From the NCBI GenBank assembly GCA_023252395.1, contig JAJPDY010000003.1, positions 1 through 21,853 on the forward strand: a DNA stretch of 21,853 nt, given 5' to 3'. The position numbers and the translations under genes were made by a program. This document shows, piece by piece, positions 2,369 through 8,209 of the stretch. This DNA comes from Nitrososphaera sp. (GTDB lineage: Archaea > Thermoproteota > Nitrososphaeria > Nitrososphaerales > Nitrososphaeraceae). The number at the start of each line of letters is the position of its first letter. The stretch's first letter is position 1. Under the pieces are notes generated by a model. That model had not been told where the DNA came from. It saw nothing but the letters and a program-made list of their open reading frames with translations, and did not search any database.

Positions 2369-2794
2369 TTAGCGCATCGTCTTCAGTATAATGACGGTGT
2401 TTGTGTCAGACACGCCCTCTATCTTGCGTATGTCGTCTATGCACTTGTTGATCTCTACAATGGCGGGTGCCGCAATTATTGCTGCAATGTCGTACTGGCC
2501 GGTTATTTCATAGACTACTTCGACTCCGGGGAGCTTCATCAGCCTGCCTGACACCGCAGACGTGTCAGCGGTTGAAGCTACTGAAATGAGCGTTATCGCG
2601 CTCGTCTTGTCGCTTGCGCCAAGCTCGATTGTAAAGCGCTTGATGGCTCCGCTGTCAACAAGGTTCTTCACCCTCCTCCTCACCGCAGATTCGGACAGCC
2701 CTATCTCGTTTGCAATCTCGACAAAGGCGCGGCGTGAGTCTGTCTGCATGATTCGGATTATCTTCTCGTCTGTCTCGTCAATGTTAGCCGACAT
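2369..2794 (-). CDS. lysM: Lrp/AsnC-family regulator, LysM-like
   Basis: A 141-residue transcription regulator of the leucine-responsive family. Residues about 5-50 are the winged helix-turn-helix (the recognition region is about 24-45, with IGLSESAVRRRV). Residues about 65-140 are the RAM ligand-binding/oligomerisation domain, including a YEITGQYDIAA segment typical of the family. Its start overlaps the 3' end of lysJ by 11 bases, so it is translated as the last gene of the lysYZJ unit. In Sulfolobus the Lrp-like LysM binds just upstream of the promoter of the lysW operon and responds to lysine. By analogy this protein is the best candidate to bind the two phased half-site arrays at 5891-5937 and 8251-8297. 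The family is certain; the target and ligand are inference. Confidence 0.88.
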   Translation of the reverse strand: MSANIDETDEKIIRIMQTDSRRAFVEIANEIGLSESAVRRRVKNLVDSGAIKRFTIELGASDKTSAITLISVASTADTSAVSGRLMKLPGVEVVYEITGQYDIAAIIAAPAIVEINKCIDDIRKIEGVSDTNTVIILKTMR

Positions 2795-3965
2795 TTCTTC
2801 TCTTTTCCTCGCTAGTCAATACAGCGTCCATTATATCAACTGCGCGGGAAACCGTCGTTTCATCCATTACAAGTGGCGGAAGGAGTCTTATGATGTTTCT
2901 TCCAGAGTATAACATCAGCAACCCGTTGCGAATTCCGTCAAAGAGCACATCCTTGACCTCAAAGCGTAGCTCAACTCCTAGCATCATGCCGATACCCCTG
3001 ACCTCGCGGATTATCTTGTGCTTTTCCTTGAGGCGGTTGAGGCCCTCCTTGAAGTGCTTGCCCATTTTGGCCGCGTTCTCAACGAGCTTGTCGTCGGTGA
3101 GAGCCTCAAGAGTGGCTACTCCTGCCGCGCAGGCAATTGGGCTTCCGCCAAACGTGGACGAGTGTTCGCCAAGCTTCATTGCGTCCATCACTTCCGGCTT
3201 TGCCAGTACAAGTCCCATCGGGATTCCACCTGCAATTCCTTTTGCGAGGCACATGATGTCCGGAGTTGTGTTCCAGTTCTGCCCTGCCCACATCTTGCCA
3301 GTTCTGCCAAGCCCTGCCTGTATCTCGTCAAACACCAGCACAAGATTGCGCCTGTTGCAGATTTCCCGTATCCTTGGCAAGAGGTCGTCAGGCGGGACTA
3401 TGATACCAGTCTCGCCCTGTATGGGCTCAACAATTACTGTGCCTGTTGTATCATCTATTGCCTCTTCCAGCTTTTCCGGGTCGCTGTAGGGCACAAACTT
3501 TACTCCCTCCAGCAGCGGCATGAATGACTTCCGATATTTTTCGTTGTAGGTGACTGAAAGCGCGCCAAAGGTCTTGCCGTGGTACGCGCCATTCATGGCT
3601 ATTACTCCGGGCTTGCCTGTGTATTTTCGTGCAAACTTGAGCGCGGCTTCGACAGATTCGGCGCCGCTGTTGGTAAAGAACATCTTGGTCAATCCAGGCG
3701 GCGCTATAGTCGACATTTTCTCCATGAATTGTAACCTGGTATCGTTGTATACAGACATGTGAGCCGTGATGAGCATGTCAGCCTGTTTTTTTATCGCGGC
3801 AACTACCCTGTCGTTGCAGTGCCCGACCAGTGCGACGCCATAGCCTCCCATGCAGTCAATGTATTCTTTGCCTGCAGTGTCCCACACCCTTGCACCCTTG
3901 CCCCTTGCAAGGTTCACCGGGAACCTCTGGTACAGCGTTGCTAGATGCGAATCTTCGCTGCTCAT
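2784..3965 (-). CDS. lysJ: [LysW]-aminoadipate semialdehyde / glutamate semialdehyde aminotransferase
   Basis: PLP enzyme of the acetylornithine aminotransferase family, 393 residues, normal length. It transaminates the carrier-bound semialdehyde, giving LysW-lysine (or LysW-ornithine in the arginine branch), with glutamate as amino donor. Visible motifs are NSGAES at 99-104 (cofactor phosphate binding), VFDEIQ at 211-216 with the Asp that contacts the pyridine nitrogen, and LAKGIAGG with the Schiff-base Lys at 242. It overlaps lysZ upstream by four bases (ATGA) and lysM downstream by 11, so translation is coupled. It could be named argD on homology alone; the LysW neighbourhood decides for lysJ. 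Confidence 0.93.
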   Translation of the reverse strand: MSSEDSHLATLYQRFPVNLARGKGARVWDTAGKEYIDCMGGYGVALVGHCNDRVVAAIKKQADMLITAHMSVYNDTRLQFMEKMSTIAPPGLTKMFFTNSGAESVEAALKFARKYTGKPGVIAMNGAYHGKTFGALSVTYNEKYRKSFMPLLEGVKFVPYSDPEKLEEAIDDTTGTVIVEPIQGETGIIVPPDDLLPRIREICNRRNLVLVFDEIQAGLGRTGKMWAGQNWNTTPDIMCLAKGIAGGIPMGLVLAKPEVMDAMKLGEHSSTFGGSPIACAAGVATLEALTDDKLVENAAKMGKHFKEGLNRLKEKHKIIREVRGIGMMLGVELRFEVKDVLFDGIRNGLLMLYSGRNIIRLLPPLVMDETTVSRAVDIMDAVLTSEEKRRNVG

Positions 3966-4762
3966 GGCGTTATCACCGTGCAGTTGTTGTGCGCAATTGC
4001 AGCAGAAATCGGATTGTCGACTTGGCCGGAGGCGATGATTGCTTCCTTTACTCCCATCTCTAGCGCCTCAGTGCAGGCAAGAACCTTCTTTTCCATGCCA
4101 AACCCTATCTTTGGCAGCGCCTCTTTAGCCTGTTCAAGCGTCATGCTTGTGACCAGCTTTTCATTGAGCATGAGCCCGTTTACGTTTGTAATGAATATCA
4201 CCTTGTCTGCCTTTACTCCGCCTGCAACGTATGCCGCCGCTCTGTCGCCATCGACATTTAGAAAGTCATAGTCCTCACTCAGCGCGATTGGCGAGACCAC
4301 CGGCACGTAGCCGCTGTTTACAAGGTGGTTCACAAGCGTCGGATCAACTGCGTTTATCTTGCCGGTGTAGCCGCCATCTATCATCATCTTCCTGCCTTTT
4401 TCATTTATTATCAGCAGCTTCTTTTTGCGCTCCGCTTTCAAGATGCCTCCATCGATTCCCGCGATACCAACTGCCTTGATGCCCTGACGCAGAAGCATGC
4501 CCACTATGGCCTTGTTTATCTTGCCAGACATGACCATCGTGTATATCTCGGCAGTCTCCTTGTCCGTGTGACGGCTGCGCACGCCGCCTGGCGACACTAT
4601 GAATTTTTGCTCCTTGCCAAGCTTTGTAGCGACAGCCGTGACGTCTTTGCCTCCGCCATGCACAAACACCAGCTTGTCCTTTTCTGCAATAGACTTGATG
4701 TCTGTCAGAGTCGTTGGGTGCAGCCCGTCGACTACACTTCCGCCTATCTTTATGACTATCAT
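3962..4762 (-). CDS. lysZ: [LysW]-aminoadipate / glutamate kinase
   Basis: Amino-acid kinase of the N-acetylglutamate kinase fold, 266 residues. It phosphorylates the side-chain carboxylate of the LysW-bound aminoadipate (or glutamate). The N-terminal IKIGGS loop (residues 4-9) and HGGGKD (35-40) bind nucleotide phosphates and substrate. NVDGDRAA near 169-176 and FITNVNGLM near 190-198 are the usual C-terminal nucleotide-binding features. Its ATG overlaps the lysY stop by four bases (ATGA) and its stop overlaps the lysJ start in the same way. Homology alone would allow argB; the surrounding lys genes and the absence of an N-acetylglutamate synthase support the carrier-protein route. Confidence 0.93.
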   Translation of the reverse strand: MIVIKIGGSVVDGLHPTTLTDIKSIAEKDKLVFVHGGGKDVTAVATKLGKEQKFIVSPGGVRSRHTDKETAEIYTMVMSGKINKAIVGMLLRQGIKAVGIAGIDGGILKAERKKKLLIINEKGRKMMIDGGYTGKINAVDPTLVNHLVNSGYVPVVSPIALSEDYDFLNVDGDRAAAYVAGGVKADKVIFITNVNGLMLNEKLVTSMTLEQAKEALPKIGFGMEKKVLACTEALEMGVKEAIIASGQVDNPISAAIAHNNCTVITP

Positions 4763-5811
4763 ACCGGTGTCAATGGAGTGTAGTTCAAGCCTTCTGTCTC
4801 GCCCAAGCCAAACATCACGTTCATGTTTTGTATTGCAGAGCCGGCTGCCCCCTTCATCAGGTTGTCTGATGCGGAAAGCGCGACTATTCTCTGGTTGTCC
4901 TCGTCTATGTCAAAGCCGACGTCGCAAAAGTTCGAGCCGACTACGAACTTTGGATCGGGGAACTTGTAGAGTCCCTTCTTGTCTCGAATAAGCCTGACAA
5001 ACGGCTCACCCTTGTACGAGTTGCGGTACATCTTCCACAGCTCCAGCTCTTCCACTGAGCGCTTGAGGAACGTGTGGTTCGTTGTCAGTATGCCCCTTAC
5101 GATGTTGACTGCGTGAGGGCTCATGCTTACCTTGATCTGCTTCTTGGCAACAATAGAGAGCTCTTGCTCGATTTCGCCTGTGTGTCTGTGCTTTGCAGGC
5201 TTGTATGGCCGAACGACGCCATAGCGCATCGCGTGGTGCGTGCCGGCGTTTGCCTTCGCGCCTGCACCGGATGAGCCTATCTTGCTATCCACCACGACGT
5301 GGTCGGTGTCTATCAGGTTGTTTTCAATGAGCGGCTTGAGCGCAAGGAGCGATGTCACTGCCATGCATCCGGGGCATGATACTAGCTGCGCCTTTTTGAT
5401 CTCTTCGCGGTGGAACTCTGGCACGCCGTACACTGATTTTGACAGCATGTCAGGGAATGGGTGCTCCCATCCATACCACTTTACATAGTCTTTTGGATTC
5501 TTGAGCCTAAAATCTGCCGACAGGTCGATAATCTTCATCCCCCTGTCGTACAGATCCTTGACTATCTTGTTCGCCTTGCCGTGTGGCACAGAGGTAAACA
5601 CGAGATCGCACGAGTTTGCCAGCTTGTCCATGTCCATCGGCGAGAATGTCAGATCAATGAATCCCTTCAGAGATGGGTGGATGCGGTGCACATAGTCGCC
5701 TGCCTTTTGCCGCGATGTTACCATGCTGATCTCTACCTTTGGGTGGGTGACTAGCAGCCGCAAAAGTTCTCCGCCTACGTATCCGGAAGCGCCAACTACT
5801 CCAACTTTCAT
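4759..5811 (-). CDS. lysY: [LysW]-aminoadipyl/glutamyl phosphate reductase
   Basis: ArgC-family NADPH-dependent reductase of 350 residues, converting the carrier-bound acyl phosphate to the semialdehyde. GASGYVGGELL at 7-17 is the Rossmann nucleotide loop. CPGC at 146-149 contains the catalytic Cys149 that forms the thioester. HRHTGEIEQEL at about 208-218 carries the conserved histidine. It is the first gene of the lysYZJ-lysM unit. The 126-base gap between the lysX end and this start holds a TATA box and an array of Lrp-like half-sites, so lysY probably begins a second transcription unit with a leader of about 45 bases. Confidence 0.93.
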   Translation of the reverse strand: MKVGVVGASGYVGGELLRLLVTHPKVEISMVTSRQKAGDYVHRIHPSLKGFIDLTFSPMDMDKLANSCDLVFTSVPHGKANKIVKDLYDRGMKIIDLSADFRLKNPKDYVKWYGWEHPFPDMLSKSVYGVPEFHREEIKKAQLVSCPGCMAVTSLLALKPLIENNLIDTDHVVVDSKIGSSGAGAKANAGTHHAMRYGVVRPYKPAKHRHTGEIEQELSIVAKKQIKVSMSPHAVNIVRGILTTNHTFLKRSVEELELWKMYRNSYKGEPFVRLIRDKKGLYKFPDPKFVVGSNFCDVGFDIDEDNQRIVALSASDNLMKGAAGSAIQNMNVMFGLGETEGLNYTPLTPV

Positions 5812-5937: not shown

Positions 5938-6798
5938 TTACTTTCTGGCGATCTTGACCGCGTACTCGATTATTGCGCCAGGGATGTCATTTTCAGACAC
6001 GCTTGCCGCCCCGTGGAACTCGACTGTATTGTTCACTTCATGGACGATAAGCCCGCGATCCTTGTCCTCCATCATGTCAACACCGAGTATCCCGCCGCCG
6101 ACAGCTTTTGCAGCTTTTAGCGCCAAGTCTTCAAGCTCTTTTGTGATTGGCGCAAGCTCGGCCTTGCCCCCGCGGGCGACGTTCGTGCGCCACTCGTTTT
6201 CAGCAGAATAGCGGTAAATTGCGGTGACAACATGGTCGCCAACTACTATGCACCGGATGTCTCTTGGCGGCCTGTTTATCATTTCCTGGACGTAGTAGAT
6301 CCTCGAAAGCGGGCTGTCGTCTTCCTCTCTCATCTCTACAATCATGCTTGCCACTTCGCTGTCTCGGAGCGGGAATACGCCTCTGCCCCACGAGCCTACT
6401 ATGGGTTTTAGCACAATCGGAAAGCCAGTCTTGTTTATTGTTTCAAGGGCAGATTCGGCTGCAAACGCAAACTGCGTCTTTGGAGTAGGCACTTTGTTTT
6501 TTGCAAGCACAAGCGACGTGATAAGCTTGTTGCCACAGGTCTCGCCCACTTGGAACTTGTTTATCACCTTGAAGCCAAGAAACTCAAGACACGCAGTGAG
6601 GTACAGCCCACGGTAGTGGCTGACGCTTCTCTGCAATATCACGTCTCCAAGTGCAAAATCTTTCTTCTTGCTGTCAGTAGTGATAGTCAGAGTCTTGCCA
6701 TCTACGATCTGCGCCTTTACGCCCTTCTTTTGCGCCTTTTCGTACAGCGCCTTCTCTTCAAAGCGCACCTTGTCGTATATGATGCAGACTTCAGTCAT
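5938..6798 (-). CDS. lysX: [LysW]-L-2-aminoadipate ligase (ATP-grasp)
   Basis: RimK/LysX-type ATP-grasp ligase of 286 residues that links the amino group of aminoadipate (or glutamate) to the C-terminus of the carrier LysW at the expense of ATP. VLKPIVGSWGRGV (129-141) contains the ATP-binding Lys131 and the glycine loop. D241 and EVNN (254-257) are the metal-binding acidic/Asn residues. The following NNTVEFHGA segment (256-264) lies where LysX and ArgX enzymes differ in substrate choice. Its ATG shares one base with the lysW stop (TAATG), so it is coupled to its substrate protein. Only one such ligase is seen here, next to argG; it may serve both pathways or a separate ArgX may lie elsewhere. 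Confidence 0.92.
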   Translation of the reverse strand: MTEVCIIYDKVRFEEKALYEKAQKKGVKAQIVDGKTLTITTDSKKKDFALGDVILQRSVSHYRGLYLTACLEFLGFKVINKFQVGETCGNKLITSLVLAKNKVPTPKTQFAFAAESALETINKTGFPIVLKPIVGSWGRGVFPLRDSEVASMIVEMREEDDSPLSRIYYVQEMINRPPRDIRCIVVGDHVVTAIYRYSAENEWRTNVARGGKAELAPITKELEDLALKAAKAVGGGILGVDMMEDKDRGLIVHEVNNTVEFHGAASVSENDIPGAIIEYAVKIARK

Positions 6799-6977
6799 TA
6801 TTGTCCCCAGTCTTCGCCTACTGTTTCTGCCGGCTTCAGCTCCACCTTGTCGGCTGCCTTTGAGGCAATCTCGTAGTCGCCTCCGCAGTCAGGGCACGTC
6901 ACGATCTCGCCCACTACAGAGTCTTCTGGAACGCTGATGTCGGCTCCACATTCTTGGCATTCAACTTTTGTTTTCAT
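6798..6977 (-). CDS. lysW: Amino-group carrier protein LysW, ending in EDWGQ
   Basis: A 59-residue acidic zinc-ribbon protein. It masks the amino group of aminoadipate/glutamate and carries the intermediates through LysX, LysZ, LysY and LysJ. Two CxxC knuckles (Cys7/Cys10 and Cys28/Cys31) bind zinc. The C-terminal tail matches the family motif EDWGE except that the last codon is CAA (Gln) at 6801-6803, followed by TAA. In the Thermus protein the final Glu is the residue joined to the substrate, so the change lies at the functional atom. The start ATG overlaps the argG stop (ATGA) and the stop overlaps the lysX start. Confidence 0.95.
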   Translation of the reverse strand: MKTKVECQECGADISVPEDSVVGEIVTCPDCGGDYEIASKAADKVELKPAETVGEDWGQ

Positions 6978-8209
6978 TTTTTATTTTTTTCTCCCTTTGT
7001 TTTTTTATCATCGTCGGCAGTCGCGCCTGCAGCGACCGAGTTTGCGATGATTGATTGCAGGCCCCACAGTTCTACGAACCCCTTGGCCAGGTTCTGGTCA
7101 AAGGTAGACCCGGCTGCGTACGTTGCCAGATCGTTTTTGTACAGGGAATATTTCGATTCCCTGCCAACCACGCGAAGTGATCCCCTTTGCATCTTTAACC
7201 TGACTTTTCCGGTAACTCGGATTTGAGTCGCATCTATAAATCTATCCAAGTCATTGCGCAGCGGGTCCTGCCACAGCCCGGAATATGCAAGCCAGCTCCA
7301 CTGCTCGTCCACCGTGCGCTTGAACGCAAGCTCGTGTTTTGTCAGCACCATCTTCTCCAGATCCCTGTGTGCCTCGATTATCGTGATCGCAGCCGGCGCT
7401 TCGTACACTTCCCTTGACTTTATGCCAACTACGCGGTCCTCTATGTGGTCGACTATGCCAACTCCATGAGCGCCGGCCTTGTCGTTGACGTACTGGATGA
7501 GATCGATTATTGGCATGCGCTTGCCGTCCGCGGCTACCGGAGTCCCGGCTTCAAATTCTAATTCGATGTAGCCGGCCTTGTCGTTGGCAAAGTTGATGAA
7601 CTGGAATGCGTCTTCTGGCGGCTCAAAGTGCGAATCCTCGATATTGCCTCCTTCCACGGCCCTGCCCCACAGGTTGAGGTCGATACTGTACTTTTTCGCC
7701 TCGGCGCTTATCGGTATGTCCTGCTCTTTTGCAAATTTCATCTCGACGTCGCGTGTGAGGTTCATGTCCCGTATCGGGGCGATTATCTTGAGCTTTGGGT
7801 TGAGGGCTCGCATCGTGACGTCAAACCTTATCTGGTCGTTGCCCTTGCCTGTGCAGCCGTGCGCTATGGCGATGGCGCCTTCCTTGTTTGCCACTTGTAC
7901 GGCTTTGGCAGCAATCAGCGGGCGGGCGAGCGCGGTAGCCAGCGGGTACTTGTTTTGATACAGGCCGTTAGCCTTGATGCTTGGAATAACGTAATCGCGT
8001 GCAAATTCTTCTCGGGCGTCAACGTAGACGTGCTTTATCGCGCCTATCGCCTTGGCCTTCTTTTCAATCTCCTTGAAATCGTCGTCCTGGCCGCAGTCCA
8101 CCGTGACTGTTACCACGTCGAGCTTGTGCAGAGTCTGCAAGTATCGTATGCAAACAGAAGTGTCCAAGCCCCCCGAGTAGGCCAAAACAACCTTGCCGTT
8201 ATTTCCCAT
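6974..8209 (-). CDS. argG: Argininosuccinate synthase
   Basis: Joins citrulline and aspartate with ATP in arginine synthesis; 411 residues, the usual length. AYSGGLDTS (10-18) is the PP-loop that binds ATP, and HGCTGKGNDQIRF (117-129) is the family signature around the citrulline/aspartate site. The C-terminus carries a Lys-rich hydrophilic tail beyond the conserved part. It is the first gene of the argG-lysW-lysX unit, overlapping lysW by four bases. Its ATG lies about 35 bp from a TATA box at 8239-8248, implying a leader of under ten bases, and the phased half-site array lies immediately upstream of that box. Its place at the head of a lysine cluster suggests shared control, and perhaps a shared carrier, for arginine and lysine. 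Confidence 0.96.
   Translation of the reverse strand: MGNNGKVVLAYSGGLDTSVCIRYLQTLHKLDVVTVTVDCGQDDDFKEIEKKAKAIGAIKHVYVDAREEFARDYVIPSIKANGLYQNKYPLATALARPLIAAKAVQVANKEGAIAIAHGCTGKGNDQIRFDVTMRALNPKLKIIAPIRDMNLTRDVEMKFAKEQDIPISAEAKKYSIDLNLWGRAVEGGNIEDSHFEPPEDAFQFINFANDKAGYIELEFEAGTPVAADGKRMPIIDLIQYVNDKAGAHGVGIVDHIEDRVVGIKSREVYEAPAAITIIEAHRDLEKMVLTKHELAFKRTVDEQWSWLAYSGLWQDPLRNDLDRFIDATQIRVTGKVRLKMQRGSLRVVGRESKYSLYKNDLATYAAGSTFDQNLAKGFVELWGLQSIIANSVAAGATADDDKKTKGEKNKK

Follow-up and report, generated by a model that had tools for sequence, protein, structure and literature searches.

A terminal glutamine in place of glutamate in the LysW carrier proteins of Nitrososphaera and related archaea, and a possible deamidation step

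Introduction

LysW and ArgW (PDB 3vpb chain E, 3wwl, and 5k2m chain E; NF041070 and PF21344) are zinc-ribbon proteins with CxxC pairs and an EDWG-X tail, and their genes adjoin lysX/argX and argCBD. ATP does not ordinarily activate an amide. The ligase LysX/ArgX belongs to the same ATP-grasp family as RimK, which adds glutamate to ribosomal protein S6 through an alpha linkage. In contrast to RimK, the characterised LysX/ArgX enzymes use the gamma-carboxylate of LysW, the cargo being carried on the last Glu with which the solved and characterised proteins end, as described in the available text of the source (PMC10433800). The same text reports that Natrinema with the argW mutation E54A showed no growth without arginine, and that MS/MS placed glutamate on E54 of ArgW (PMC10433800).

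Another small protein joined via the side chain of its C-terminal Glu is Pup, which, according to the accessible portions of two articles, is encoded with Glu in many species and with Gln in others, and whose removing enzyme Dop also deamidates Pup-Gln in addition to releasing Pup from proteins (PMC12288473, PMC8223512). For LysW the likeness is one of analogy only, Pup being an unrelated, disordered tag for proteins.

Results and discussion

The window and its lysW

The window, i.e., the whole stretch of DNA analysed, comprises 21,853 nucleotides of Nitrososphaera sp. (GenBank assembly GCA_023252395.1, contig JAJPDY010000003.1, positions 1 to 21,853 of the forward strand). It harbors the following gene cluster, and an Rfam search of the window gave no match.

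6974..8209, minus strand: argG (argininosuccinate synthase), the gene immediately upstream of lysW (NF001770 and TIGR00032 above cut-off)
6798..6977, minus strand: lysW, the arginine-side copy by its neighbours (NF041070 and PF21344 above cut-off)
6801..6803, minus strand: final sense codon of lysW, CAA, encoding Gln where characterised LysW has Glu (translation and alignment to PDB chains ending EDWGE)
5938..6798, minus strand: lysX/argX, ATP-grasp ligase, the predicted LysW loader (TIGR02144, 311.4 bits against a cut-off of 275.6)
4759..5811, minus strand: argC/lysY reductase (TIGR01850 above cut-off)
3962..4762, minus strand: argB/lysZ, [LysW]-aminoadipate/glutamate kinase (NF010662 above cut-off)
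2784..3965, minus strand: argD/lysJ aminotransferase (TIGR00707 above cut-off)
2369..2794, minus strand: LysM-type transcriptional regulator that closes the cluster (NF040947, 197.9 bits against a cut-off of 180)

Re-translation of minus 6977-6798 confirmed what a sequence-only reading of this DNA had claimed, namely that lysW ends in EDWGQ with CAA as its final codon and is otherwise intact: the 59-residue protein has the C-terminus AETVGEDWGQ, two CxxC pairs (CQEC and CPDC), and the acidic EDWG tail, and its TAA stop at 6800-6798 overlaps the ATG of lysX. The protein scored 94.8 bits against NF041070, the NCBIfam LysW/ArgW model (cut-off 75), and 49.5 bits against Pfam PF21344 (cut-off 27), and was below the cut-off of the narrower TIGR01206 lysW model (40.8 vs 53.2). 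The neighbouring lysX product keeps the GSWGR motif and matched the RimK family model TIGR00768 with 279.4 bits (cut-off 143.4).

The source genome (G000; 66.7% complete, with 159 contigs totalling 1.11 Mb) harbors a second LysW at G000:C109:3232-3396, which is 58% identical to the window copy and also ends EDWGQ, with CAG followed by TGA. Its gene neighbours argH, homocitrate synthase, lysX, and lysK, and lies in a lysine-side cluster (L033, G000:C109:2003-5396) in which homocitrate synthase, lysW(Gln), lysX, and lysK follow one another; lysK was assigned by TIGR01902, and argH and homocitrate synthase were named from their sequences. The Pfam LysW model recovered these two copies and no third LysW above cut-off in this 66.7% complete genome. 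G000 thus has one arginine-side and one lysine-side LysW, both Gln-ending. By profile and gene context the Gln-ending LysW is a member of the LysW/ArgW family, the window lysW adjoining its ligase and the argCBD/lysYZJ genes, but it departs at the very residue that bears the cargo. As an encoded C-terminal Glu is lacking from both copies of the genome, the protein is filed as a family variant rather than as a canonical member. A wrong base at 6803 was considered and ruled out, since the equivalent codon is CAA or CAG in the genomes of relatives and Gln occurs in both paralogues.

The last residue across homologues and its spread

Tails were compared in 213 proteins, comprising the 92 matches of a first protein search, 120 listed matches of 280 from a second, and the query; 79 of the 93 proteins in the first set (92 homologues and the query) end exactly EDWGQ. 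After three proteins with a cut or shifted tail (P0082, P0083, and P0160) and two with an overrun tail (P0108 and P0185) were set aside, the 208 intact tails among the matches listed consisted of 169 ending in Gln, 39 ending in Glu, and none ending in any other residue, P0057 (EDCGQ), P0130 (EDWDQ), and P0112 (doubled tail EDWGQWDWGQ) being scored as Gln. Scoring the last residue of aligned LysW proteins, which had been proposed as a check, therefore gave Glu or Gln in every intact tail among the matches listed. The closest pairs of Glu- and Gln-ending LysW match over about 0.9 of their length. The doubled tail of P0112 and the few extra residues of P0185 and P0108 are either true variants or assembly faults.

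Exact searches for GEDWGQ-stop, GEDWGE-stop, and GEDWG-any-stop in 300 genomes of the order, with family counts tallied by hand, found matches in 199, 211, and 264 genomes, respectively. GEDWGQ-stop was confined to three families (f1, f9, and f2) and occurred in 0 of the 91 genomes of the other 14 families, 59 of which have GEDWGE-stop. In f1, the family of the source genome (n = 70), 47 genomes had Gln only, 18 both endings, 2 Glu only, and 3 no match; in f9 (n = 132) the corresponding counts were 6, 122, 3, and 1, and in f2 (n = 7) both endings were found in 6 genomes and Glu only in 1. These counts come from an exact pattern that overlooks Glu copies with a slightly altered tail, as in G199, which was tallied as Gln only yet has a second LysW ending AEDWGE. 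In G026, one GEDWG-any-stop match ends in neither Glu nor Gln. Across the phylum (398 genomes), the Gln pattern was present in 72 of 74 genomes of the order vs 2 of 324 others, and these two (G393 and G417) have genuine LysW genes with lysX behind each; G393 additionally has a Glu-ending LysW that the exact pattern missed.

Among the matches listed, Gln-ending LysW occurred in records named Nitrososphaera, Nitrosocosmicus, Nitrosopumilus, Nitrosopelagicus, Nitrosotalea, Nitrosotenuis, Nitrosarchaeum, Cenarchaeum, and Nitrosocaldus, genera of ammonia-oxidizing archaea. The earlier statement that the LysW family ends in EDWGE thus holds for the characterised proteins but not for the ammonia-oxidizing archaea sampled. 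Outside the phylum, at least four records have a Gln-ending LysW (two Jordarchaeia, one Undinarchaeales, and archaeon UBA55), with lysX next in three of these four listed records and the fourth locus stopping there; no bacterial LysW-Gln was established among the matches listed. In the pattern scan of named genomes, 101 of the 119 stretches listed contain LysW by profile. The other 18 include three with a GEDWGQ-ending frame that is no LysW, three (L118, L143, and L150) in which lysX follows a lysW that lies at the contig start and is too short for the profile step, and 12 with no such frame of at least 35 residues. Searches of open-licence papers listed no report of a Gln-ending LysW.

Exchange of Glu and Gln and genomes with a single carrier

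Quick ligase trees were built for the arginine side (50 rows: 24 with Gln partners, 23 with Glu, and 3 without a neighbouring LysW) and the lysine side (53 rows: 35 Gln, 16 Glu, and 2 without a neighbouring LysW). At least two changes between Glu and Gln partners are required by the arginine-side tree and at least four by the lysine-side tree, of which well-supported branches alone force two and one, respectively. In f1, the arginine-side copy of G028 ends in Glu and its lysine-side copy in Gln, and G022, G031, and G024 have the reverse, while G176 (f9) and G079 (f2) have Glu on both sides and G010, G014, and G015 have two LysW each, both Gln. The f9 split, with arginine-side Glu and lysine-side Gln, is very stable, suggesting that the Glu and Gln copies of f9 are not freely interchangeable.

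Genomes with one carrier bear on the suggestion, made in the sequence-only reading, that another LysW copy does the work. For G000 this is left without support, because the other copy found in this 66.7% complete genome is Gln-ending too, and none of the nine relatives tested yielded a Glu-ending LysW scoring over the Pfam cut-off. Three of the genomes (G018, G029, and G036), each on one contig and 99% complete, share the order argG-argX-argC-argB-argD-homocitrate synthase-lysW(Gln)-lysX-lysK; argX has no lysW in front of it, and the Pfam model brought up no further LysW over its cut-off. Provided that the pathways are active, both ligases there would be served by the single Gln-ending LysW. 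G417, a one-contig genome of another family, likewise has a single LysW that is Gln-ending, bringing to four the one-contig genomes whose sole LysW ends in Gln. G246 has a single LysW that is Glu-ending and lies on the arginine side. At its locus L228 (G246:C1, 729-3207, minus), no LysW precedes the lysine-side lysX, and the frame upstream of lysX has an Arg/Gly/Ala-rich repeat run.

Partner enzymes

Exactly one LysZ-type kinase and exactly one LysK above cut-off were found in each of 20 chosen genomes, with sub-cut-off LysK relatives in G031, G037, G042, G047, and G079. Six of the 20 (G022, G028, G031, G037, G044, and G058) have one Glu and one Gln carrier, so a single kinase and a single LysK meet the products of both carrier types. 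Wherever loci are long enough, lysK comes after lysX and the lysine-side lysW.

Among the ligases, GSWGR is kept in 103 of 103 from the order irrespective of the Glu or Gln partner, and the exact motif is absent from two of four Gln-paired ligases outside the order (G393 and UBA55). This motif is said to recognise the LysW tail in the available part of one report (PMC10433800). No ligase column tracking Glu/Gln throughout was found, and the independent pairs were too few for a significant test. As candidates for a compensating ligase change, four columns split Glu from Gln inside one clade only; at three of them, L031 bears the Gln-type residue although it is a Glu row within the Gln clade, and L060 breaks the pattern of the fourth.

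Ligase column 88 (L001 frame), a Cys within QR-C-V/L-S, showed no change among 39 Glu-paired tree rows and 12 changes among 59 Gln-paired rows; of the 36 columns unchanged in Glu rows, the runner-up had three changes. This column was chosen after looking over all 279 columns examined, and its pattern rests mostly on family f1. When every locus is counted, all 46 Glu-paired ligases have Cys in this column, as do 90 of the 138 paired with Gln; one gap and one unread residue are among the remaining 48. In records named Nitrosopumilaceae, Cys is retained by all 26 Gln-partnered ligases of the lysine side. Gln therefore does not require the column 88 change, while the column pattern hints that some ligases may meet LysW-Gln directly. 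Residue 88 of the window lysX is Ser, at a position that is variable in f1 ligases beside Gln-ending LysW.

A carrier made as a pro-form

Taken together, the last residue being always Glu or Gln, the exchanges between the two, the occurrence of either as sole carrier, and the sharing of the same enzymes by both make a conversion of Gln to Glu the best explanation. We propose, with a probability of about 0.55, that LysW-Gln is a working carrier made as a pro-form whose side chain would be deamidated once to Glu. The prior deamidation put forward in the sequence-only reading is accordingly the best fit to the tails, the swaps, and the shared kinase and LysK, and it is held here as a prediction from comparative sequence data. 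In such a cycle, the terminal Gln side chain would be hydrolysed once to give Glu, LysX/ArgX would load the gamma-carboxylate with aminoadipate or glutamate in the manner of the characterised systems, and LysK would cut the gamma-amide in each round; as this would leave Glu each time, deamidation would be needed only once in the life of a carrier. Such a step may serve as a control point in lysine and arginine synthesis, as the sequence-only reading suggested. The column 88 pattern, the inexact GSWGR motif outside the order, and the stable f9 split weigh against the pro-carrier.

The earlier suggestion of a deamidase gene co-occurring with LysW-Gln gained no backing for the Pup type: homologues of Dop/PafA (PF03136) were found in 0 of 12 genomes, the positive control Corynebacterium glutamicum being recovered, and LysW-Gln is thus not a member of the Pup/Dop system. 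One family adjoins lysK at 10 of 18 chosen Gln loci vs 0 of 10 chosen Glu loci, its G000 member following lysK at G000:C109:5412-6501 (L033); it presumably resembles diphthine synthase and was set aside. Other neighbour families occurred at four to six of the 18 Gln loci and none of the 10 Glu loci, and some of them may be chance frames.

LysK would be the most economical candidate for the deamidating agent, because LysW-Gln contains the bond that LysK cuts, with ammonia replacing lysine or ornithine; the proposal is tentative and less likely right than wrong. LysK would have to accept ammonia as leaving group in place of its usual one, and it is equally present in Glu-only and Gln genomes, an occurrence that fails to distinguish it as the agent. 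A somewhat more speculative extension is that LysK may act as a Dop-like double agent, releasing lysine or ornithine and deamidating new LysW-Gln, and that this arrangement may have evolved separately from Pup, and in at least two lineages of archaea. If so, a carrier would be loadable only where its release enzyme is already present.

Alternative explanations

The main rival, which we consider unlikely, is that the cargo is joined by LysX/ArgX to the terminal Gln at its alpha-carboxylate, the amide staying untouched. The alpha-carboxylate is present on Glu and Gln alike, which would make the swaps harmless, the ligase is one of the RimK family, whose members NCBIfam names alpha-L-glutamate ligases (TIGR00768), and the absence of a ligase column following Glu/Gln throughout fits this chemistry equally well. 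However, a free side chain should drift, and no third residue was seen in the 208 intact tails among the matches listed; if only the Gln carrier were loaded in this way, the shared kinase and LysK would face two geometries. According to the available text, moreover, E54A in Natrinema abolishes arginine synthesis though the alpha-carboxylate remains (PMC10433800). Less likely again is an exchange in which LysX/ArgX itself swaps the Gln amide for the amino acid, perhaps via a phosphate intermediate like the one proposed for Dop, with no separate deamidase. The change of column 88 only beside Gln carriers in the trees would agree with this exchange, but that column was a post hoc choice among 279, the Gln-partnered ligases of Nitrosopumilaceae retain Cys, and we know of no ATP-grasp ligase of the LysX/ArgX kind that uses an amide. 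A precedent for the exchange is offered by Dop, a homologue of the ligase PafA, which acts on amides with ATP or with ADP and phosphate, as stated in the accessible part of one source (PMC12288473).

It is highly improbable that the Gln copy is no carrier at all, being a decoy, a regulator, or a decaying gene, and that a Glu-ending LysW does the work. The 122 of 132 f9 genomes that keep both copies by the exact pattern and the overlooked Glu copies of G199 and G393 speak for such a role; yet a further LysW above the Pfam cut-off is missing from G018, G029, G036, and G417, both LysW of G010, G014, and G015 end in Gln, and it is the Gln copy that sits between homocitrate synthase and lysX-lysK in those f9 loci that were read. 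The one-contig genomes contradict a non-carrier unless an unrecognised carrier exists. Equally hard to credit is a Gln that is trimmed, or a tail that is remade, for instance by stop read-through, so that another residue bears the cargo. P0108, P0112 (EDWGQWDWGQ), and P0185 do extend beyond the tail, but the residue before Gln is Gly, which has no side-chain carboxylate, and TAA, TAG, and TGA are all found after the Gln codon in relatives, which excludes read-through as a conserved device.

Implications

Across the ammonia-oxidizing archaea sampled, an inert amide is often encoded at the residue on which the carrier role of LysW depends. Ammonia-oxidizing archaea are abundant in sea and soil, and those with an amide-encoded LysW likely have either a missed activation or maturation step or a different attachment chemistry; either outcome concerns their lysine and arginine synthesis. 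A metabolic model of Nitrosopumilus maritimus fills in LysW-mediated synthesis, and the available text of that study mentions no such step (PMC6038301).

The forms of the carrier differ in computed mass. The predicted tryptic C-terminal peptide of the window LysW, VELKPAETVGEDWG-X, has a computed mass of 1656.800 Da with Gln and 1657.784 Da with Glu. Loading of the Glu form would give 1786.826 Da with glutamate and 1771.863 Da with ornithine, and a peptide that kept its amide and was loaded with glutamate would have a mass of 1785.842 Da.
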